64,000 bases of DNA. Source: Sedimentisphaerales bacterium (GTDB lineage Bacteria; Planctomycetota; Phycisphaerae; Sedimentisphaerales; Anaerobacaceae). Below, piece after piece: positions 51,297-62,765 of the stretch. The stretch spans positions 1 to 64,000 of the forward strand of contig JAFGRL010000017.1 in assembly GCA_016935195.1 (NCBI GenBank), written 5' to 3'. A program made the translations under genes and the position numbers. Positions within the stretch are counted from its first letter, which is position 1. Each line of letters begins with the position of its first letter. The notes beneath the pieces are model-generated. The model searched no databases and was not told the origin of the DNA. It saw only the letters and a list, made by a program, of their open reading frames with translations.

Positions 51297-52829
51297 ATGG
51301 CAAGAGAAATGCTTGTAAATGTCGCCGAAACCGAAGAATGCAGAGTAGCGATAGTTGATGACGGTTCACTCGAAGAATTATATATCGAAAGAGCAGGCCT
51401 AAGCAGGCATGTCGGCAACATTTATAAGGCAAAAGTGGTAAATGTCGAATCCGGAATCCAGGCAGCGTTTCTGGATTTCGGAATTGGCAAAAACGGCTTT
51501 CTGCATGTCAGCGACCTCCATCCACGCTATTTTGCAGAAACAAAAGGCACAAGCCAGGGTGCTGAAAAAATAGGCCGGAGAACCGCCTTAAAGGAAAGGC
51601 TGCCGATTCAAAAGTGCCTGCACAAGGGCGACGAACTCGTCGTACAGGTTACAAAGGAAGGACTCAAAGGAAAAGGACCAACCCTCAGCACATATCTTGC
51701 TCTGCCCGGAAAGTATCTTGTTATGATGCCCTGGATGCAAAAACACGGCATCTCTCATAAAATCGATGATGACCAGGAGCGAAAGAGACTGCGCCAAATA
51801 CTACAAGAGAGCAAACCGCCGAAGCAGCAGGGTTTTATTATTCGAACGGCAGGTCTGGGATGCTCTAAGAGCGATATCCAAAACGATTTAAGATATCTTC
51901 AACGGCTCTGGAAGGCTATCGAAAAAAGGATAGATGCACAAAAAGCACCGGGCGAGATCTACCAGGAATCAGACCTCGTTATCCGCACACTAAGGGATGT
52001 CTTCAACAGCAAGATAAGCAGAATAATTTGCGACTCACAAAATGTAGTTAAGAAAATTAAAGACTTTCTCGCAATAGCTACTCCACGACTTAAACGCCGC
52101 GTATCACACTACGATGACAGAGTACCACTTTTCCACAACTATGGCATCGAAGACGAAATCACTAAAATTCAGTCCAGAACCGTCCAGCTTAAAAGCGGTG
52201 GTTCAATTATAATAGAGCAAACAGAGGCCCTGGTCTCCATAGATGTGAACAGCGGCAAATACCGAAAGCATCAAAATGCCGAACAAACGGCTTACAAAAT
52301 CAACATTGAGGCAGCAGCCGAAATCGCCCGGCAGCTTAGGTTAAGAGACCTTGGCGGCCTGATAATTTGTGACTTCATAGATATGAGGAACCAAAAGCAC
52401 CGCAGGGATGTTGAAAAGAACTTTCGAAACGCCGTTAAAGCAGACCGTGCCCGCAACAAAATACTCAGAATAAGCAGATTCGGCATCATAGAAATGACAC
52501 GGCAGAGAATGCGCCCCTCCCTGCAGTCGGCCACCTATTTGGCCTGTCCACATTGCGGCGGAACGGGCTTTGTCAAAAGCCACGAGTCACTCGCTATTGA
52601 AATAATACGTTTGCTAAATCTTTCTGCAACAAAGGAGAATATCAAACGTCTCGAGCTGTTTGTCTCACCGGAAGCTGCTGATTATCTGCAGAATGAGAAA
52701 AGAACCGCCATCGCCCAGATGGAGCAACAAAGCGACAAGCGGATTATAATTCGCTCCTCTTCCGGCTACACCGGTGAAAAACACGACCTGGTTTGCTACA
52801 ACGAGCAAGGCACCGTGGTAAAGTTGTAG
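51297..52829 (+). CDS. rng: ribonuclease E/G family protein
   Basis: S1-like YIERAGLSRHVGNIYKAKVVNVESGIQAAFLDFGIGKNGFLH; ALVSIDVNSGKYRKHQNAEQTAYKINIEAAAEIARQLRLRDLGGLIICDFIDM; CPHCGGTG. Confidence 0.96.
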   Translation: MAREMLVNVAETEECRVAIVDDGSLEELYIERAGLSRHVGNIYKAKVVNVESGIQAAFLDFGIGKNGFLHVSDLHPRYFAETKGTSQGAEKIGRRTALKERLPIQKCLHKGDELVVQVTKEGLKGKGPTLSTYLALPGKYLVMMPWMQKHGISHKIDDDQERKRLRQILQESKPPKQQGFIIRTAGLGCSKSDIQNDLRYLQRLWKAIEKRIDAQKAPGEIYQESDLVIRTLRDVFNSKISRIICDSQNVVKKIKDFLAIATPRLKRRVSHYDDRVPLFHNYGIEDEITKIQSRTVQLKSGGSIIIEQTEALVSIDVNSGKYRKHQNAEQTAYKINIEAAAEIARQLRLRDLGGLIICDFIDMRNQKHRRDVEKNFRNAVKADRARNKILRISRFGIIEMTRQRMRPSLQSATYLACPHCGGTGFVKSHESLAIEIIRLLNLSATKENIKRLELFVSPEAADYLQNEKRTAIAQMEQQSDKRIIIRSSSGYTGEKHDLVCYNEQGTVVKL

Positions 52830-52894
52830 GAATCACATATAATTATCTATTTGAAACTCTATCTAACCAACAAACTAATTTGGAGCTTAACAAA

Positions 52895-53872
52895 GTGAAA
52901 TTCGACCTTGATTATGCTCGAAGAGTGATCGAAAGCGAATCCGAAGCTATCAAAAGCATCACGCGAATAGTTGATGACTCGTTCGCTACAGCTGCTATGA
53001 TGCTCTATCAGTGCAAGGGCTCGGCCATAGTAAGCGGCATAGGCAAAGCCGGTATCATAGGCCGGAAAATAAGCGCAACTTTGGCTTCTACCGGAACACC
53101 GAGCCACTTTCTGCATCCGGCCGAAGCCGTCCACGGCGACCTTGGCAGAGTTCGAGAAGGTGATGTTGTTCTCGTCTTAAGCTATGGGGGTGAAACTGAA
53201 GAAGTCATTCGACTAATAAACCTTGTCAAACAACTGCAGGTGCAACTTATAGCAATGACCTCAGACGAGGATTCAACGTTGAGCAGACACAGTGACGTGG
53301 TTCTTTGTCTGGGTAAAATGTCCGAGGCCTGTCCGCTCGGTGTCGCCCCAAGCGTTTCAACCACCTGTATGCTTGCAGTTGGCGATGCACTTGCATTTAC
53401 GGTTATGAAGGCAAGAAACTTTAGTGTCGAGGACTATGTAAGATTCCACCCCGGGGGCTCACTCGGCTCGAAACTTATGACCGTAGAGCAGTCTATGATG
53501 TTCAAGCCCGGGGAAAAGCTGCCTATAGTTAATGTCAACTCTACACTTAAACAGATGCTTGAAAAAACAAAGGATATTAAACGCCATGGTGCGGTAATGG
53601 TCGTTGACAATAATGGAAGATTGGCTGGAATAATCACTGATGCTGACCTGCGCAGGCTCATTACCAAACAAGGCCCAGGTGCCTTCGAAGTAAACACCGG
53701 CAAAGCTATGACATCTGACTGTAAAAGAATAAGAATTGATGCTCTTGCAGCCGAGGCTACAGCAATGTTTCACAAATACAGAATTGACGAACTGCCGGTT
53801 GTTGACCGTGATGATAGGCCTGTTGGTCTGATAGATGTACAGGATATTGTTACAATAAAAGTTGTCGGCTAA
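52895..53872 (+). CDS. kdsD: arabinose-5-phosphate isomerase KdsD/KpsF (SIS + 2 CBS)
   Basis: GTG start at 52895 with ggag upstream is more plausible than 52793; GIGKAGIIGRKISATLASTGTPSHFLHPAEAVHGDLGRV; FHPGGSLGSKLM; CBS pair. Confidence 0.93.
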   Translation: MKFDLDYARRVIESESEAIKSITRIVDDSFATAAMMLYQCKGSAIVSGIGKAGIIGRKISATLASTGTPSHFLHPAEAVHGDLGRVREGDVVLVLSYGGETEEVIRLINLVKQLQVQLIAMTSDEDSTLSRHSDVVLCLGKMSEACPLGVAPSVSTTCMLAVGDALAFTVMKARNFSVEDYVRFHPGGSLGSKLMTVEQSMMFKPGEKLPIVNVNSTLKQMLEKTKDIKRHGAVMVVDNNGRLAGIITDADLRRLITKQGPGAFEVNTGKAMTSDCKRIRIDALAAEATAMFHKYRIDELPVVDRDDRPVGLIDVQDIVTIKVVG

Positions 53873-54436
53873 TTGAAAAAAATCATTACATTAACAGGAG
53901 TTAGGGAAGTGAGCAAAAATTCCCAGCCCAGGCTTGAAAATATACAAATGCTAATACTTGATGTGGACGGAGTTCTAACCGATGGCACCATCATAGTCAA
54001 TGCTGATGGGACCGAAAGCAAATCCTTCAGTGCCCTTGACGGCCATGGAATTCGCCTCTGGAAAAGGTCCGGCTTAAAAGTCGCCTTTTTAAGTGGCCGT
54101 AAATCCGAACCGACAGTACACAGAGCCAGACAGCTCGAAGTTGACTATGTACTCGAAGATTGTCACGACAAACTAAAAACTTTGAAAAACCTTCTTGAGA
54201 AACTATCCCTGGCACCGGAGGAAATTGCCTATATTGGCGATGATTGGCCGGACCTGCCGGTTATAAAGTACGTGGGCTTCGGTGTTGCCACAGCCAATGC
54301 GGCCGAAGAAGTTAAGCAACACGCAGATTATATCACAACATCCAAAGGAGGAAACGGAGCCATCCGTGAAACGGTCGAATATATTCTCAAAAATAACAAC
54401 AAATGGCAGCAGCTTGTTGAAAGATACACACTCTAA
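53873..54436 (+). CDS. kdsC: 3-deoxy-D-manno-octulosonate 8-phosphate phosphatase (KdsC, HAD family)
   Basis: MLILDVDGVLTDGTIIVNADGTESKSFSALDGHGIRLWKRSGLKVAFLSGRKS; YIGDDWPDLPV; alternative GTG start at 53909. Confidence 0.93.
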   Translation: MKKIITLTGVREVSKNSQPRLENIQMLILDVDGVLTDGTIIVNADGTESKSFSALDGHGIRLWKRSGLKVAFLSGRKSEPTVHRARQLEVDYVLEDCHDKLKTLKNLLEKLSLAPEEIAYIGDDWPDLPVIKYVGFGVATANAAEEVKQHADYITTSKGGNGAIRETVEYILKNNNKWQQLVERYTL

Positions 54437-54454
54437 GGTCAATAAGGCAAAACT

Positions 54455-56626
54455 ATGGCATTTGAAACCCGTAAATTATTAACAGGCCTGTTCTCACTGC
54501 TGGCAGTTTTGCTGATTTATTTACTCTACTGCTGGATTAGTAATACTCCCGAAATTAATATCGCAACTAACCTGCAGGAGGTCAATAACAATGCAGATGC
54601 AAACACACCTCAGAAACAAGGTGATATTGGTGTAGTAGGCGGTGTCGGCGTGGGATCTGCACAGGTAGCAGAGTTTATAACACTAAATAAGGATAACCAA
54701 ACAGAGAGAAAATTCGGTTTCGAAAAACTTCTACACAAAACCGGGAAGAACTGGCAAATAGAAAAGCCATATATGACTATCTTCCGCCCAGACCTTAGCT
54801 GCCACTTAACTGCCGAGACGGGTAATGTCATAGTGGATGAGGCTCTCGGCAAACCCAGCCCGACAGACGCAACGCTTACAGGAAATGTCAAGATTCACAT
54901 CTCGCCGGAAAACAGCAGCGATATTCAGGACACATATATCTACCTTGATGAGATAACCTTCATTAGTGATAAATCTCAATTATCTACTGCCGGCCCAGTA
55001 AAACTTGTATCCCCGAACGCAAATATGTCCGGCACAGGCCTGGAAGTCGTCTATAATGACCGGGCTAATCGCCTCGAATATCTTAGAGTAATCCAGCTTG
55101 ATACTTTAAAACTCAAAATACCAAAGCAGCATTCTGCCGCTCTGAGATCACCTACTGAGCCGTCTCAGACTGCTTATGAAAGCAAAGTCGAAAAACCAAC
55201 CGAAACAAGCTCACAACAAAACAAAGCTGACTCTTCACAAAAGACCTTAAATTACAGATGTGGATTCGATGGAAATGTTGTTATCAAAAGTCCTGAGCAA
55301 ATAATCTCTGCCAAGCAGGTCTATATAAACAACATCTTCATTCCGAAAGAATCATCTGAAGCTGACAAAGACGATTCCACAAGTAGAAATAGCAAACGAA
55401 TGGGCAACTCTGCGGAAAATGACAGAAAATCTCAAGACTCAGGTGAATTTACTGATATTACCATCACCTGTGATAATGGTGTTATCATTACTCCTGTGGA
55501 TTCTGCGTTAACATTCGAGAGTTTCAAACAAAACAAAGCAAAGGACATCGAAGCAGTTCAACCGGAAAAAATCGACCCAAAGAACTTTCCGGACAAACAC
55601 ACACTTGTCGCTGAAAAAATCGACTATTGTGCTCTGACTGACAAGACAGATGTAACCGGACCGCTTGAGCTAACTGTCCGGATTAACAGTTTGAACGATA
55701 CCGAAACCGAAAAAAAGTCCCTGCCCGCAAAGATATTTGCATCGGAAAAGGCCACATTTGACCATACGTCAAATTCTGTGCTTTTCGAAGGCAACTGCTC
55801 ATGCACGATGCGTCAGTTAAGTTCGACTTACGAGTTCAGTTACAGCCTGTGTGCACCTCAAATAACCGCAATACTGTCATCGGCCACTGCTCCCCTGGGC
55901 CCTGCCAGCTCGGTCAAGAGCGTTACTGCGACCGGTGGAAATGTGAAACTGGCAACACTGAAGATGCAAATCCAGAACAACCATATTGACACTAAACACA
56001 TCCAACCTGTCGATCAGGATAAGGTGCTAAGGGGTATGGAACTAAAATGTGCCAGGTTTGATTTCAACGCCGAGCAAAATCAAATTTCCGCAGCCGGGCC
56101 GGGTATAATGAAGATAAAAAATTTTAGCAATGACAATACCAACTCTCGGCTGTCTCGATGGGGTCTAAACAAACCCCATTGGGCCTTTCTGCAGGATTTT
56201 GCAACATTGGTATATTCCCTTAAGACACATCTGCTGACAGCTAATGCCGAACCTAAGCAGATGCTGCGCATCGACTACATACCCATAACAAAAGATCGCT
56301 ACGACCAATACATCACCATTTACACCACAGCTATAAAGACTCAGCTTGCGGAGACATCAAGCGGACAATTCGAAATTCGCTCACTCAATGCAGACGATGG
56401 CGTCTTTTACGAACAGCAAACCTTAAAAAGTGAAAGTACAGTACCCAAAACTCTGTACTTCTCAGCTAATGAAATGCTATATGAAGCTGAAGATGGCAAA
56501 ATTAAAGCCTGGGGCAACGACGGGCAGCCATGCCTGCTCAACGGCGCTCTCGTAGACGGCATCGAGTGCAATCTCAAGACAGGCAAAGCAAAAAATAAAA
56601 TCTTTGCTCCTGGTTCATTAAGATAA
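54455..56626 (+). CDS. large membrane-anchored LptC/OstA-like protein
   Basis: N-term TM then beta-rich sequence with LTAETGNVIVDEALGKPSPTDATLTGNVKIHI (OstA/LptC-like); downstream of kdsD-kdsC. Confidence 0.65.
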   Translation: MAFETRKLLTGLFSLLAVLLIYLLYCWISNTPEINIATNLQEVNNNADANTPQKQGDIGVVGGVGVGSAQVAEFITLNKDNQTERKFGFEKLLHKTGKNWQIEKPYMTIFRPDLSCHLTAETGNVIVDEALGKPSPTDATLTGNVKIHISPENSSDIQDTYIYLDEITFISDKSQLSTAGPVKLVSPNANMSGTGLEVVYNDRANRLEYLRVIQLDTLKLKIPKQHSAALRSPTEPSQTAYESKVEKPTETSSQQNKADSSQKTLNYRCGFDGNVVIKSPEQIISAKQVYINNIFIPKESSEADKDDSTSRNSKRMGNSAENDRKSQDSGEFTDITITCDNGVIITPVDSALTFESFKQNKAKDIEAVQPEKIDPKNFPDKHTLVAEKIDYCALTDKTDVTGPLELTVRINSLNDTETEKKSLPAKIFASEKATFDHTSNSVLFEGNCSCTMRQLSSTYEFSYSLCAPQITAILSSATAPLGPASSVKSVTATGGNVKLATLKMQIQNNHIDTKHIQPVDQDKVLRGMELKCARFDFNAEQNQISAAGPGIMKIKNFSNDNTNSRLSRWGLNKPHWAFLQDFATLVYSLKTHLLTANAEPKQMLRIDYIPITKDRYDQYITIYTTAIKTQLAETSSGQFEIRSLNADDGVFYEQQTLKSESTVPKTLYFSANEMLYEAEDGKIKAWGNDGQPCLLNGALVDGIECNLKTGKAKNKIFAPGSLR

Positions 56627-57114: not shown

Positions 57115-58269
57115 TTAAGGGCCCCCCTGCGAGTCTGCCTGGCTCTGCGAACTGCTTTCGACTGGTTCTGTCGGCTTGGCCGGCTTAATGAATGGAATAA
57201 GCTCAGGGGCTTTATCTGGCGACAGCGGCGCTGCAAGCTCAGCTACGTTATTCTGCTTAAATTCTGCGACGACTGGTACCACCTCGTTTGGCACATAGAA
57301 AATAAAATCAATCCATTTTACGCTGCCATCGAAATCTTGTGAGGACAGTTTTATTATGTGGCTTAGTTTTGCCAATTGAATCTTGCCAGGCGTCCCCACG
57401 TAACCTGCTGGGTAAACATCGACACCGTTACCTGAAAACACATCAGCTCGCTGGGTTTTCAGCTTACATACAACCCTTACCTGCCCAAGTGTGAATTTCT
57501 CAACCGCTGGCAAAGCACTTCTCTTAATCCCAATGCGGACAATTGTCAGTTCGCACCCGCTCTTTGGTTCTATTACCCGGTTAGGATCCGCTGAGATTCT
57601 GAGCCCTTCCGGTGCAGGCCACAGGCTTTCTTTTGAAACCGTTATAGCCTGTGAAGTCGTAACAATTGGTACATCGTCCGAAGAATTGAGCTTGTTCAAA
57701 AAGAGCTGATCCAGGAAGTCAGCACGCAGGACCGCAAAGCTGTTCCTCCCGCTGAAGCTGCCCCTGCTGATAGTGCTGAACCAGCCCACTGCAAATCCAT
57801 CGGCATTGAGCAGTGATTTTCCTGGCAAATCAGGATTGGGATTGAGCTTATCAAAGCGCTCGTAAGGAATATTATTCGATAATGGTGCCATTGCAAGAGC
57901 TGTAAGTACCAGCCCTGATGCGATAAGGCCCAGCAAAGCACCGCAAACAATACGCCCAGCCCGTTCTGCAATTACGCCTAAGTCAATCTTCTCCCGGACT
58001 ATCTGAGCTATGGCTGTCTGTAAAATCGCAAAAGCAACAACAAACAGCAGAGCAAAACACAGTGCCGGTGCCCAGGGTACTAAACCGGCATTGCGACTGC
58101 TTTGGCCCCGGCTGATAAATACATTCGCAAGGGCTTCAAAATAGCCGAAGGCAACCACACTAGAGCAAATTACAGCCATTATAGTGGCAAAGGCTTTAAC
58201 AAGCGTTCCTTTGATATACTGATAAGCCACACAGCCAACAATAATCACCAACACTAATAAACTTGACAT
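57115..58269 (-). CDS. CvpA-family membrane protein with C-terminal extension
   Basis: LLVLVIIVGCVAYQYIKGTLVKAFATIMAVICSSVVAFGYFEALA; four-TM CvpA-like N-term. Confidence 0.75.
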   Translation of the reverse strand: MSSLLVLVIIVGCVAYQYIKGTLVKAFATIMAVICSSVVAFGYFEALANVFISRGQSSRNAGLVPWAPALCFALLFVVAFAILQTAIAQIVREKIDLGVIAERAGRIVCGALLGLIASGLVLTALAMAPLSNNIPYERFDKLNPNPDLPGKSLLNADGFAVGWFSTISRGSFSGRNSFAVLRADFLDQLFLNKLNSSDDVPIVTTSQAITVSKESLWPAPEGLRISADPNRVIEPKSGCELTIVRIGIKRSALPAVEKFTLGQVRVVCKLKTQRADVFSGNGVDVYPAGYVGTPGKIQLAKLSHIIKLSSQDFDGSVKWIDFIFYVPNEVVPVVAEFKQNNVAELAAPLSPDKAPELIPFIKPAKPTEPVESSSQSQADSQGGP

Positions 58270-58506: not shown

Positions 58507-60168
58507 TTATGGCCTTTTCCTTTGATCTTTCTTTCGGGAAAGCACCCTTACCATTTCATTTATACATGTTGTGCCAGCAATTACCTTCTGCAGGGCGGTT
58601 TCCTGCAGATAGACCATTTTGGCGCGCCTGAATTGCGTGCCAACGTCAGCTAATGACTTCGACTGCTTTATAACCTCTCTTAGCTGATCATTTATCATAA
58701 TGATCTCGAAGATAGCCATTCTGCCTACAAAACCTATCCCCTGACAATTCTCGCAGGTTCTGGATTTACCACGTTTGTCATATACTACCTTGCCTGCCCT
58801 ATAAAACACTTTTGCTTTTTCTGGCGGGATATTAAATTTGCGGAGAATCTCCGGATTGGGGCTGTAGGCCTGCTTACATTCATCACAGAGAACCCGAAGC
58901 AATCTTTGGTTGACTATCCCAATGAGTGTATCAGCAACCAAATTCTTATCGCCTGCGAACTTAATCCATCTGGCCAGTGCTTTTAGCACATTATCTGCTT
59001 CAACCGTAGCATATACAATTTTTCCGTCTTTGGCCGCAGCGCAGGCAACCTCAGCAGTCTCCGTATCAGCACAGTCAGCAACACCCACTATGTCAGGACC
59101 CATCCTCACAATAGACAATAGTTTCTTTGCATATGTTGTAACACCTGTATCGCTTAAAGCAAAGACTTCCTGGGTGATATTAGGCAAATCTACAACCACT
59201 TTTCGCTCAAGTGTGCTGATGCTGTAAACAAAGGGGTCGTGATTTCTGACAAGAGCGTAAAACGTTGTGGTAACACCGGAGTTTCTGGGGCCCGACACTA
59301 TAAACAGGCCCTGCTTCAAATGTCGTATTGTTTCAAGCTGCTCTCGTTGCTTAGACGATACACCGATATCAGACAACCTTGATATCTGTTGTTGCATTAT
59401 TTGCTTGAGCGCAATCTGTTCCCCCGCAGTGGAGCCGGCAGTAGCCAGTTCCCAGTCCGTGGTTTTTCCTTCACGGCGTACCCTGAATTTGCCTTTTTGA
59501 GGCTTGCGTCTTTCATCCATATCAAGGGCCGCCAGATTCTTAACGAAGCGAATGAAATATTCAGTCTGGTCTCTGGGCATTGCTGGCTGCTTCAATAGTG
59601 TTCCATCTACGTTGTATGTTACCTTGTATTCCTGAGCTGTGGGTGTAAAAAGTACATCGCTTGCTCTTCGCCAAATAGCATCGCTGAAAATATCGCACGC
59701 CATCTTATAGCCTAAGAAATCAGGGGTCTTGGGCTGTGGTAAAGGAACATCGTTATTATTTGCCGTTATAAACTTATAACTTTCAAGCTGTTCAATTGTT
59801 CTCTCTTGGTTAACGAATAGGTCCTTGATGTGTTCGATAGTAAGAATTCGGTCAAACTCCGGAACCTGGGTATTTCGGTGCATAACGTACCCTAATGATG
59901 AGGCTCCGACAACAATGATGTAAAACAGCAGGCCTACGACAAAAATAGGCGTCAGAAGCCAGATTACACTCCCTGCGGCCCCGGCGCCGAACACAACAGC
60001 CGCCCAAAAAGCCTCATTTGTACCAATTGCTCTGGCATCCCTGTACAGCCAGGACAGAAGCGCAATCCACAGAACAAATAAAACCACAAAGACAGCAAAT
60101 TTAGGTATTGATATATACCCCCCATATTCGACAGCAACAATTAAATCCGTCATTAAACACTCCATCAC
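58507..60168 (-). CDS. membrane-anchored GspE/PilB-family protein with degenerate ATPase motifs
   Basis: N-term hydrophobic segments; GspE-like core GLFIVSGPRNSGVTTTFYAL (Walker A Lys replaced by Val), MGPDIVGVADCADTETAEVA, C-terminal CDEC...CENC and GFVGRMAIFEI. Confidence 0.88.
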   Translation of the reverse strand: MMECLMTDLIVAVEYGGYISIPKFAVFVVLFVLWIALLSWLYRDARAIGTNEAFWAAVVFGAGAAGSVIWLLTPIFVVGLLFYIIVVGASSLGYVMHRNTQVPEFDRILTIEHIKDLFVNQERTIEQLESYKFITANNNDVPLPQPKTPDFLGYKMACDIFSDAIWRRASDVLFTPTAQEYKVTYNVDGTLLKQPAMPRDQTEYFIRFVKNLAALDMDERRKPQKGKFRVRREGKTTDWELATAGSTAGEQIALKQIMQQQISRLSDIGVSSKQREQLETIRHLKQGLFIVSGPRNSGVTTTFYALVRNHDPFVYSISTLERKVVVDLPNITQEVFALSDTGVTTYAKKLLSIVRMGPDIVGVADCADTETAEVACAAAKDGKIVYATVEADNVLKALARWIKFAGDKNLVADTLIGIVNQRLLRVLCDECKQAYSPNPEILRKFNIPPEKAKVFYRAGKVVYDKRGKSRTCENCQGIGFVGRMAIFEIIMINDQLREVIKQSKSLADVGTQFRRAKMVYLQETALQKVIAGTTCINEMVRVLSRKKDQRKRP

Positions 60169-60219: not shown

Positions 60220-61371
60220 TCACAAAATACCGCCGGCAGTGGTCCTGATACCTTTAAGTGCCATCTTCAGCTCTTCCTTGTTGGGAGCATAATGATAAGC
60301 ATCTTTCGGATCTACCATACCTTCCTTAATCAGTGCGCAAAGATTGTCCGTAATGTCCTGCATCCCTTCTTCTTTAGCGCTTCGGATAACATTAGGCAAA
60401 TCAGCCTCACGCTCTTCTGAAATTAATTTCTTCACCGATGGATTTGCAAGCAAAATCTCTACTGCGGGTATCCTGTCTACACCTTCCTTGATGCATGGCA
60501 GCAGGGCCTGACTGATTATCGCCTTTATGGTAAGGCTTAAGGTTTGTCTTATCAAATCCCTTTCTGTCTGTGGAAACAAATCCAACAATCGTTGAACAGC
60601 CTGAGATGTATTTTGAGAATGCATTGTGCCGAAAACAAGATGGCCCGTCTCAGCGGCCCGCATACCGGCGCTTACGGTTTTTGCGTCGCGCATCTCTCCA
60701 ATAAACACCACATCAGGGTCCTGCCGCATAAGATATGTCAGCGCCTCTTCGAAATTCTGCACGTCAATACCAATCTCCCTTTGTGAAACAATAGCCTTTT
60801 TGTCTTTGAACAGATATTCAATAGGATCCTCAATCGTAACTATGTGGCACATACGTGTGGCGTTTATGTAATCTACCATTGAAGCGATAGTTGTGGTCTT
60901 GCCGCATCCGGTTGGACCAACCACCAAAACCAGCCCCTGGCTTTCATTGGCTATCTTTTCTAATATCTTGGGTAGATGAAGCTGCTCAAAAGGAGGCACT
61001 TCTGCATTCACACGACGTGCCGCAAGGCTTACAAAACCTCTCTGCCGAAATACGTTGATTCTGAAACGGTCCTCGCCGCCAATCTCATGTGCAAAATCCA
61101 GTGTGCCGAATTTAGCAAAAAACTCTTTCTGTGCCGGCGTGAGTATTTCGAAGATGAGATACTCAATTCTTTCCTCGGTCATAACCTCGCCGGTAGTGTC
61201 CTTTAATTGACCGAAAAGCCGCAATTTCGGCGGCTGACCCACTTTTAGATGAAGATCACTAGCGCGGGTTTTTATCGCCGCCCTGAAGTACTTATGAATC
61301 TCCGGCTCATGGTCCAAATACACCTGCGCATCAATAGGCTGCTTCTCAACCATAATTGCTTCTAACTCCAA
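60220..61371 (-). CDS. pilT: type IV pilus retraction-type ATPase PilT
   Basis: VVGPTGCGKTTTIASMVDYIN, TIEDPIEYLFKDKKAIVSQREIG, RQDPDVVFIGEMRDAKTVSAGMRAAETGHLVFGTMHSQNTSQAVQRLLDLFP. Confidence 0.96.
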   Translation of the reverse strand: MELEAIMVEKQPIDAQVYLDHEPEIHKYFRAAIKTRASDLHLKVGQPPKLRLFGQLKDTTGEVMTEERIEYLIFEILTPAQKEFFAKFGTLDFAHEIGGEDRFRINVFRQRGFVSLAARRVNAEVPPFEQLHLPKILEKIANESQGLVLVVGPTGCGKTTTIASMVDYINATRMCHIVTIEDPIEYLFKDKKAIVSQREIGIDVQNFEEALTYLMRQDPDVVFIGEMRDAKTVSAGMRAAETGHLVFGTMHSQNTSQAVQRLLDLFPQTERDLIRQTLSLTIKAIISQALLPCIKEGVDRIPAVEILLANPSVKKLISEEREADLPNVIRSAKEEGMQDITDNLCALIKEGMVDPKDAYHYAPNKEELKMALKGIRTTAGGIL

Positions 61372-61900: not shown

Positions 61901-61964
61901 CAGCAATTAAAAGCTTGGCAACGGTGCCAGGTAGAAAATGTTTTTGGAAGAAGGAGGAGAAACG

Positions 61965-62765
61965 ATGCAGAAAAAACTATTGTTAATGTTGTCTTGTGTT
62001 TTGGTATTTTGTCTTACAGGAAGCACATTGGCTGTCAATGTGTGGTGGTACGGCGCAGACGATGACGGAGACTGGTTCAACGGCAACAACTACTCCAACA
62101 GCGCTGTGCCCCTCTCTGACACAGGCGTAAACTGGTCCGTGTCTGGGCTTTCCAAAGCTCCTATAGACATCAGTTCCGGTGCAGCACTTTGTTCCTCGTT
62201 ATGGTCGTACAATGAATCTAATACTCACACCACAATGACCATATCTGGTGGAAGTATCACTGGTACGGGGTATTTGTTAACCGGTACCGGCAGCCTCTCA
62301 GGGAAGTCAACATTTTATCTGGAAGATGGAACCATTACTTTCCCGCGTGTAATTGTCGGTCACAACATCTACTCAGGTGCAACCGACAAAGGTTACTTGC
62401 ACATGACAGGTGGTACACTAAATGCAACTTCTTCTTTGGAGTTGCACAAGGCCGATTCTCTCGGTCAACTGAACCTCTATGGAGGCACTATTAATGCAGG
62501 TGTGCTCTACATGGACACAGGGCATCTGCTCGACATCACCGAAGGTGTTATGTACTTAGATGGCGATCAAACAGATGCCGGCGATGATCTCCAGACATGG
62601 ATAACAGATGACTGGATTATAGCCTATGGTGGTGCCGGTACAGTTATGTCTGAGTACAATTTCGGTTCTGACCAGACCAAGGTCTGGGGTATTCCTGAGC
62701 CGGCAACGATTGCTCTGCTGGGTCTTGGCGGCCTGGTTCTGATGCGTAAAAGAAAAACAACCTGA
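61965..62765 (+). CDS. secreted PEP-CTERM-anchored protein
   Basis: start MQKKLLLMLSCVLVFCLTGSTLA with aaggaggag SD; C-term IPEPATIALLGLGGLVLMRKRKTT. Confidence 0.92.
   Translation: MQKKLLLMLSCVLVFCLTGSTLAVNVWWYGADDDGDWFNGNNYSNSAVPLSDTGVNWSVSGLSKAPIDISSGAALCSSLWSYNESNTHTTMTISGGSITGTGYLLTGTGSLSGKSTFYLEDGTITFPRVIVGHNIYSGATDKGYLHMTGGTLNATSSLELHKADSLGQLNLYGGTINAGVLYMDTGHLLDITEGVMYLDGDQTDAGDDLQTWITDDWIIAYGGAGTVMSEYNFGSDQTKVWGIPEPATIALLGLGGLVLMRKRKTT

Follow-up and report, generated by a model that had tools for sequence, protein, structure and literature searches.

A stretch of 64,000 nucleotides from contig JAFGRL010000017.1 of a Sedimentisphaerales bacterium (class Phycisphaerae), here called the window, encodes a GspE/PilB-type protein that very probably sits in the membrane and is almost certainly catalytically dead, judging by the residues that it and its relatives have lost. 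We call it TM-GspE. The whole class retains it in this form under strong purifying selection, beside a CvpA-like membrane protein and usually beside PilT. On balance, we lean towards the explanation that it serves as a non-hydrolysing scaffold or coupling ring at the inner membrane, and that its partners there are the CvpA-like protein and, usually, PilT.

Results

Identity, fold and membrane anchor

The gene starts with a GTG codon at 60168 and has a plausible ribosome-binding site (AAAGGAAA). Its main features are as follows.

58507..60168, minus strand: putative membrane-anchored pseudo-GspE/PilB (TM-GspE), 553 aa; from Pfam T2SSE, AF2 and class-wide orthologues
59866..60108, minus strand: three predicted transmembrane helices, residues 21-101 (21-48, 52-72, 76-101); from AF2 secondary structure, hydropathy and a conserved signature
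58744..58887, minus strand: zinc region, kept, C428xxC431 and C472xxC475; invariant in both the order-level and the class-wide alignment, with some of the cysteines missing in a few distant class members

T2SSE is the sole Pfam domain of the protein (4.9e-62, residues 159-541, 210 bits against a cut-off of 24.9). In NCBIfam scoring it reaches 235 bits for GspE (TIGR02533, cut-off 630) and 214 bits for PilB (TIGR02538, cut-off 676), and thus stays below both curated equivalog cut-offs. The AF2 model, a single chain built from a 20-row alignment, has a mean pLDDT of 83.4 and presents a PilB core after three helices. Foldseek aligns this core with solved PilB/PilF cores at TM-scores of up to 0.92 (5it5). 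The modelled fold, consisting of N2D, a RecA-like ATPase core and a C-terminal domain, places TM-GspE in the PilB/GspE superfamily. Profile and model therefore agree with the initial annotation, which had recognized a GspE core layout by eye.

Two strong hydropathy peaks coincide with the helical region of the model, and the residues K23, D44, P74, Y94 and R98 form a conserved anchor signature. Among the nine intact GspEs that this genome encodes, eight lack a comparable hydrophobic stretch, and the remaining one is itself a membrane-anchored paralogue. We consider it very probable that TM-GspE is anchored in the membrane, and expect its C-terminus to lie in the cytosol. The N-terminal membrane segments and the retained CxxC...CxxC region had both been pointed out before, and both stand.

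Loss of the catalytic residues

The four boxes that carry the catalytic residues of GspE-type ATPases read as follows in the window protein.

59263..59292, minus strand: eroded Walker A, GPRNSGVTTT; read from the sequence
59200..59217, minus strand: eroded Asp box, STLERK (within STLERKVV), with the Asp lost and the Glu kept; read from the sequence
59071..59088, minus strand: eroded Walker B, VGVADC (within PDIVGVADCADTETAE); read from the sequence
58993..59013, minus strand: eroded His box, YATVEAD (within YATVEADNV); read from the sequence

Every one of these motifs had been read correctly in the open reading frame at 58507-60168, including the replacement of the Walker-A Lys by Val at residue 299 (codon GTT at 59272-59274). 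An ungapped alignment shows that the Walker-B Glu is replaced by Asp.

The Walker-A Lys is missing from all of 188 distinct Phycisphaerae orthologues, and its replacements are varied: Val in 85, Leu in 36, Arg in 27, Ile in 19, and others, among them Ala, Thr, Gln and Met. An isolated mutation or sequencing error is ruled out by this count, and close orthologues with an intact motif, which the initial annotation had named as evidence against its reading, do not occur within the class. Two named loci that seemed to have the Lys turned out to be neighbouring PilT ORFs at truncated contigs. The His-box His is kept in 10 of the 188 sequences and the Asp of the Asp box in 3; at the Walker-B position there is a Glu in 48. 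None of the sequences has more than a single one of these four residues. Recurring in every class orthologue that was read, the pattern goes far beyond what chance would produce. These counts make it almost certain that the protein is catalytically dead. Hydrolysis has been lost and, very probably, tight ATP binding with it; given an acidic residue of either kind at the Walker-B position in 108/188, weak nucleotide binding may persist.

Other positions in the same boxes have been kept, namely the second P-loop Gly in 188/188, the Asp-box Glu in 187/188 and, in 90% of sampled class rows, the Thr that follows the lost Lys. Together with the frequent acidic Walker-B residue, they could be taken to mean that TM-GspE still binds a nucleotide, though unable to hydrolyse it, and serves as a sensor or switch. 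We think this unlikely. The Lys that contacts the phosphates is lost everywhere, and its varied replacements and the lost constraint in the remaining boxes are hard to reconcile with a conserved ligand site; Gly and Glu may have been kept for structural reasons. An ATPase with a non-canonical active site is far less likely still. Its candidates would be the Thr and the residues D311 and E321, which are conserved near the pocket in the dead family, but D311 and E321 also occur in intact relatives, and apart from H310 hardly any new polar residue has been gained class-wide in the pocket region.

Distribution and selection

Of 60 relatives examined by protein search, 56 have a strong orthologue, the window genome included; one copy, in G010, is interrupted by a frameshift. 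A profile made from 20 orthologues scores the dead family at 761-884 bits, as against 227-266 bits for the nine intact GspEs of the window genome. By profile search, 144 of 150 Phycisphaerae genomes have the gene, nearly always in a single copy. Most of the named records in which the family occurs are assemblies of Sedimentisphaerales, Phycisphaerales, Phycisphaerae or unclassified Planctomycetota. The whole-genome searches covered a sample of Planctomycetota, with the top candidates scored in each genome. As the profile of the order missed relatives that score near canonical GspEs, a second profile was built and used for the scan of the phylum. The window genome is a draft with an estimated contamination of 6.13%, and the gene is conserved across many independent assemblies.

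The gene is under strong purifying selection, with dN/dS values of 0.025-0.06 in same-genus pairs and 0.12 in one more distant pair. Lost catalytic motifs would also be seen in a decaying pseudogene or after sequencing or assembly errors, a reading to which we give practically no credence: the open reading frames are long and intact in nearly all 188 orthologues, dN/dS is about 0.03-0.06, and the gene is retained throughout the class in independent assemblies, complete chromosomes among them.

The regions of the protein differ in how conservation has changed. In the catalytic boxes, intact relatives have a mean column identity of 0.68-0.85 and the dead class one of 0.27-0.45, whereas it goes from 0.25 to 0.30 in the transmembrane region, from 0.51 to 0.47 in the zinc region and from 0.43 to 0.39 in the C-terminal region; it also drops in N2D (0.54 to 0.28) and in the rest of the ATPase core (0.55 to 0.31), and since the intact and dead groups differ in breadth, the contrast between regions counts more than the absolute identities. 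That conservation is lost in the boxes and hardly changed in the anchor, zinc and C-terminal regions indicates a protein that has been repurposed and is not decaying. The pattern is the signature of a lost enzymatic constraint with a structural role kept.

The "non-hydrolysing, membrane-tethered" half of the original proposal thus has strong support in the sequences, in the 0/188 count for the Lys, the purifying selection and the three predicted helices.

The operon and its partners

The neighbouring genes of the operon are these.

60220-61371, minus strand: PilT/PilU-family ATPase, immediately upstream in the operon; TIGR01420 1.7e-121, 405.7 bits (cut-off 319.1)
57115-58269, minus strand: CvpA-like membrane protein with four predicted TM helices and a C-terminal beta domain; AF2 pLDDT 87.5

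The order pilT, TM-GspE, cvpA-like is conserved, and the link to cvpA is tighter than the link to pilT. Counted by simple ORF calling, which makes the numbers lower bounds, a cvpA-like gene directly follows the TM-GspE gene at 40/40 loci of the order, 40/43 other loci of the class and 44/51 loci outside the class; pilT lies upstream at 36/40, 29/43 and 38/51, respectively. The CvpA-like protein, which the initial annotation did not consider, is therefore the most constant neighbour. Lost catalytic residues, combined with strong conservation beside a membrane protein and usually an intact PilT, the retraction motor, suggest that TM-GspE is probably a structural or regulatory part and not the engine.

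The PilT of the window is intact, as had been claimed: Walker A (GPTGCGKTT), EDPIEY, GEMRD and the His-box His can all be read. At the other loci where the adjacent PilT was read, Walker A is intact too; in two of them the simple pattern search hit another stretch. The motif of the window PilT that seems to match AIRNLIRE is SVKKLISEE, and this PilT may therefore be functionally specialised. At all three loci outside the class whose upstream region was read (L330, L332, L341), and in family f5 (L065), hisF lies directly upstream of pilT, and the order hisF-pilT-tmGspE-cvpA links the operon with a histidine biosynthesis gene.

The CvpA-like protein of the window scores 22.6 bits with Colicin_V (PF02674; cut-off 29.3), and some homologues at the same position reach 33-37 bits. 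Outside the class the partners are mostly 185-280 aa long, as against 350-850 aa in the class. The class proteins have gained a C-terminal domain, absent from the short homologues elsewhere and beta-rich in the model of the window protein. No PDB match for the CvpA-like protein or its beta domain was found below an E-value of 0.01, the best being a Clostridium beta-sandwich protein (5bxg, 0.018).

A secreted protein at 61938-62765 has a PEP-CTERM-type C-terminus (IPEPATIALLGLGGLVLMRKRKTT), which is ordinary for the phylum. On the plus strand, at 52793-56626, genes that by eye resemble an arabinose-5-phosphate isomerase (KpsF type), a KdsC phosphatase and a large LptC converge on the operon.

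The initial annotation had further suggested that the protein regulates a T4P/T2S-like machine or takes part in its assembly, and here the genomic data are less accommodating, as PilT is a usual and not a universal neighbour and a GspF/PilC platform gene (T2SSF) is absent from the window contig (C198). The genome has seven GspF genes on seven other contigs, six of which share their contig with an adjacent canonical GspE and the seventh with a PilT-like gene. The missing platform gene makes a pilus role of the operon tentative. It would suit an envelope module of TM-GspE and the CvpA-like protein that is unrelated to pili, with PilT being a mere frequent neighbour or itself recruited. The tighter link to cvpA points the same way, as do the links described for enteric CvpA, which concern the export of colicin V and resistance to bile salts and not pili (PMC6705877). 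We nevertheless regard such a module as rather unlikely, because no other gene is found upstream as often as PilT, be the lineage intact or dead, and because TM-GspE keeps the PilB fold including its zinc domain.

Intact, half-eroded and dead forms

The window genome also contains an intact membrane-anchored form, on another contig (C151, locus L009).

1489-3087 of C151, minus strand: intact membrane-anchored GspE paralogue; intact motifs
842-1483 of C151, minus strand: Colicin_V-positive membrane protein directly downstream of the paralogue; Colicin_V match

This pair stands without PilT. The paralogue has clear orthologues in more than half of the 60 relatives, followed by a CvpA-like gene of their own in the cases examined, so that the pair of membrane-anchored GspE and CvpA recurs without PilT. 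Eight of these orthologues were placed on the tree, where they form a separate clade.

Outside the class, membrane-anchored GspEs with the same neighbours have intact motifs (loci L181-L192, L330-L335, L349). In a second class, that of genome G308 and probably Planctomycetia, the family was found in 87 of 119 genomes and occurs in all states. Families f49, f119 and f120 and several f117 genomes have intact versions. Half-eroded versions are found in two f117 genomes in which the Walker-A Lys survives but the Asp, Walker-B and His boxes are gone (L345, L346), and in f121 and two further f117 genomes that retain three of the four boxes. Dead versions are found in f90, f99, f116, f123, f124, f126 and f127. 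At one locus of this class (L336), only the His is missing. L336, L345 and L346 are apparent intermediates of catalytic loss.

In a tree rooted on canonical GspEs and calculated with the motif columns left out, the intact lineages branch below the dead ones. This position and the mixture of states in the second class indicate that the dead state is derived. Since sister lineages have intact anchored forms and the window genome has one as a paralogue, neither of which the initial annotation had recorded, the anchor appears to predate the catalytic loss. If gene and species histories agree, the dead state arose at least twice; AU tests, with long branches involved, rejected neither a single dead clade nor one second-class clade (p 0.19-0.37). 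An origin by recent duplication, with a canonical GspE or the C151 paralogue as the source, was considered and rejected, as the dead family is nested in a clade of anchored GspEs (100/99 support) that excludes the paralogue.

The coexistence of both forms raises the question of whether inactive TM-GspE mixes into hexamers with an intact GspE/PilB, either the C151 paralogue or a canonical one, and so tunes the number of firing sites. The kept subunit fold and the presence of an intact anchored paralogue in the window genome and in over half of the searched relatives would allow it. However, six nearly complete genomes (G032, G039, G041, G044, G050, G054) have the dead protein without a paralogue at the threshold used, the C151 paralogue is encoded on a different contig and belongs to a separate old clade, and PilT and PilU, for comparison, form separate homohexamers that do not mix (PMC6821130). 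We judge mixed rings to be improbable.

Discussion

PilB and GspE, in their functional equivalogs, are cytosolic proteins whose soluble N1 domain docks on GspL/PilM. TM-GspE shares with them (T. thermophilus PilF/PilB, 5it5; G. metallireducens PilB, 5tsh) the N2D, the ATPase core and the zinc CxxC motifs, with 25-27% identity and a TM-score of about 0.9 over the core. It differs in that all four catalytic boxes are eroded, three predicted membrane helices take the place of the soluble N-terminal domain, and the neighbour is CvpA-like and not GspF. The intact anchored GspEs of other Planctomycetota are closer, having the same layout and the same operon with a CvpA-like protein and often PilT, but they keep GPTGxGKST, ED/EN-P, GEIRD and the His box. 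The partner protein has a putative membrane domain of the type found in CvpA, the Colicin V production protein, modelled as four helices, but scores under the Pfam cut-off and has the extra beta domain. To our knowledge, CvpA has no established biochemical function. We found no description of a degenerate or membrane-anchored GspE in Planctomycetota in the open-access literature, which is weak evidence of absence.

A functional precedent comes from Vibrio cholerae, where PilU still powers retraction when PilT carries Walker A or B mutations, but not when PilT is missing (PMC6821130, PMC6762196). A dead ring can thus be an essential coupling part. As in that pair, two rings of related ATPases may act together here; the differences are that PilT and PilU are both natural ATPases, soluble and of PilT type, not PilB type, and that the dead state was engineered.

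We propose the following model. A PilB/GspE-type subunit that was already fixed to the inner membrane by N-terminal helices would have lost ATP hydrolysis and kept its fold. It would form a scaffold or coupling ring that does not itself hydrolyse ATP, with its N-terminal helices and the CvpA-like protein keeping it at the inner membrane. The work would be done by an active ATPase docked onto it, for which the adjacent PilT is the most likely candidate. A coupling scaffold is the simplest model that accounts for the kept fold, the lost hydrolysis, the constrained anchor and zinc region, the constant CvpA-like neighbour and the usual PilT. Its parts differ in strength. A physical module of TM-GspE and the CvpA-like protein is quite probable. 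Coupling or docking of PilT is more tentative, somewhat short of even odds, and has to reckon with the 14 of 43 non-order class loci, and several other lineages, in which PilT is not adjacent, even if simple ORF calling may have missed some. Ring formation, the contacts with both partners and a role in pili are what we infer from fold and neighbourhood.

Planctomycetes have unexplained crateriform structures with pili-like fibres (PMC5394234). One may speculate that the dead PilB-type ring and the CvpA-like protein form an undescribed inner-membrane machine base in Planctomycetota, with PilT acting on top, that replaces the soluble extension motor and the GspF/PilC platform and could belong to these structures. 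We regard this as a long shot; any link of TM-GspE to the craters and fibres is speculation.

The finding matters beyond a single operon, since a whole class keeps a motor that is dead by sequence, while sister lineages keep the running form in the same operon. This amounts to a natural experiment that separates the ATP-burning role of a PilB-type ring from its structural role. Because intact, half-eroded and dead forms occur in one sister class, the order in which the catalytic function was lost can be followed and put to the test. The finding also links a secretion-motor protein with CvpA, which is widespread among membrane proteins and has no known mechanism, and it supplies concrete candidate genes for the planctomycete craters and their pili-like fibres (PMC5394234).
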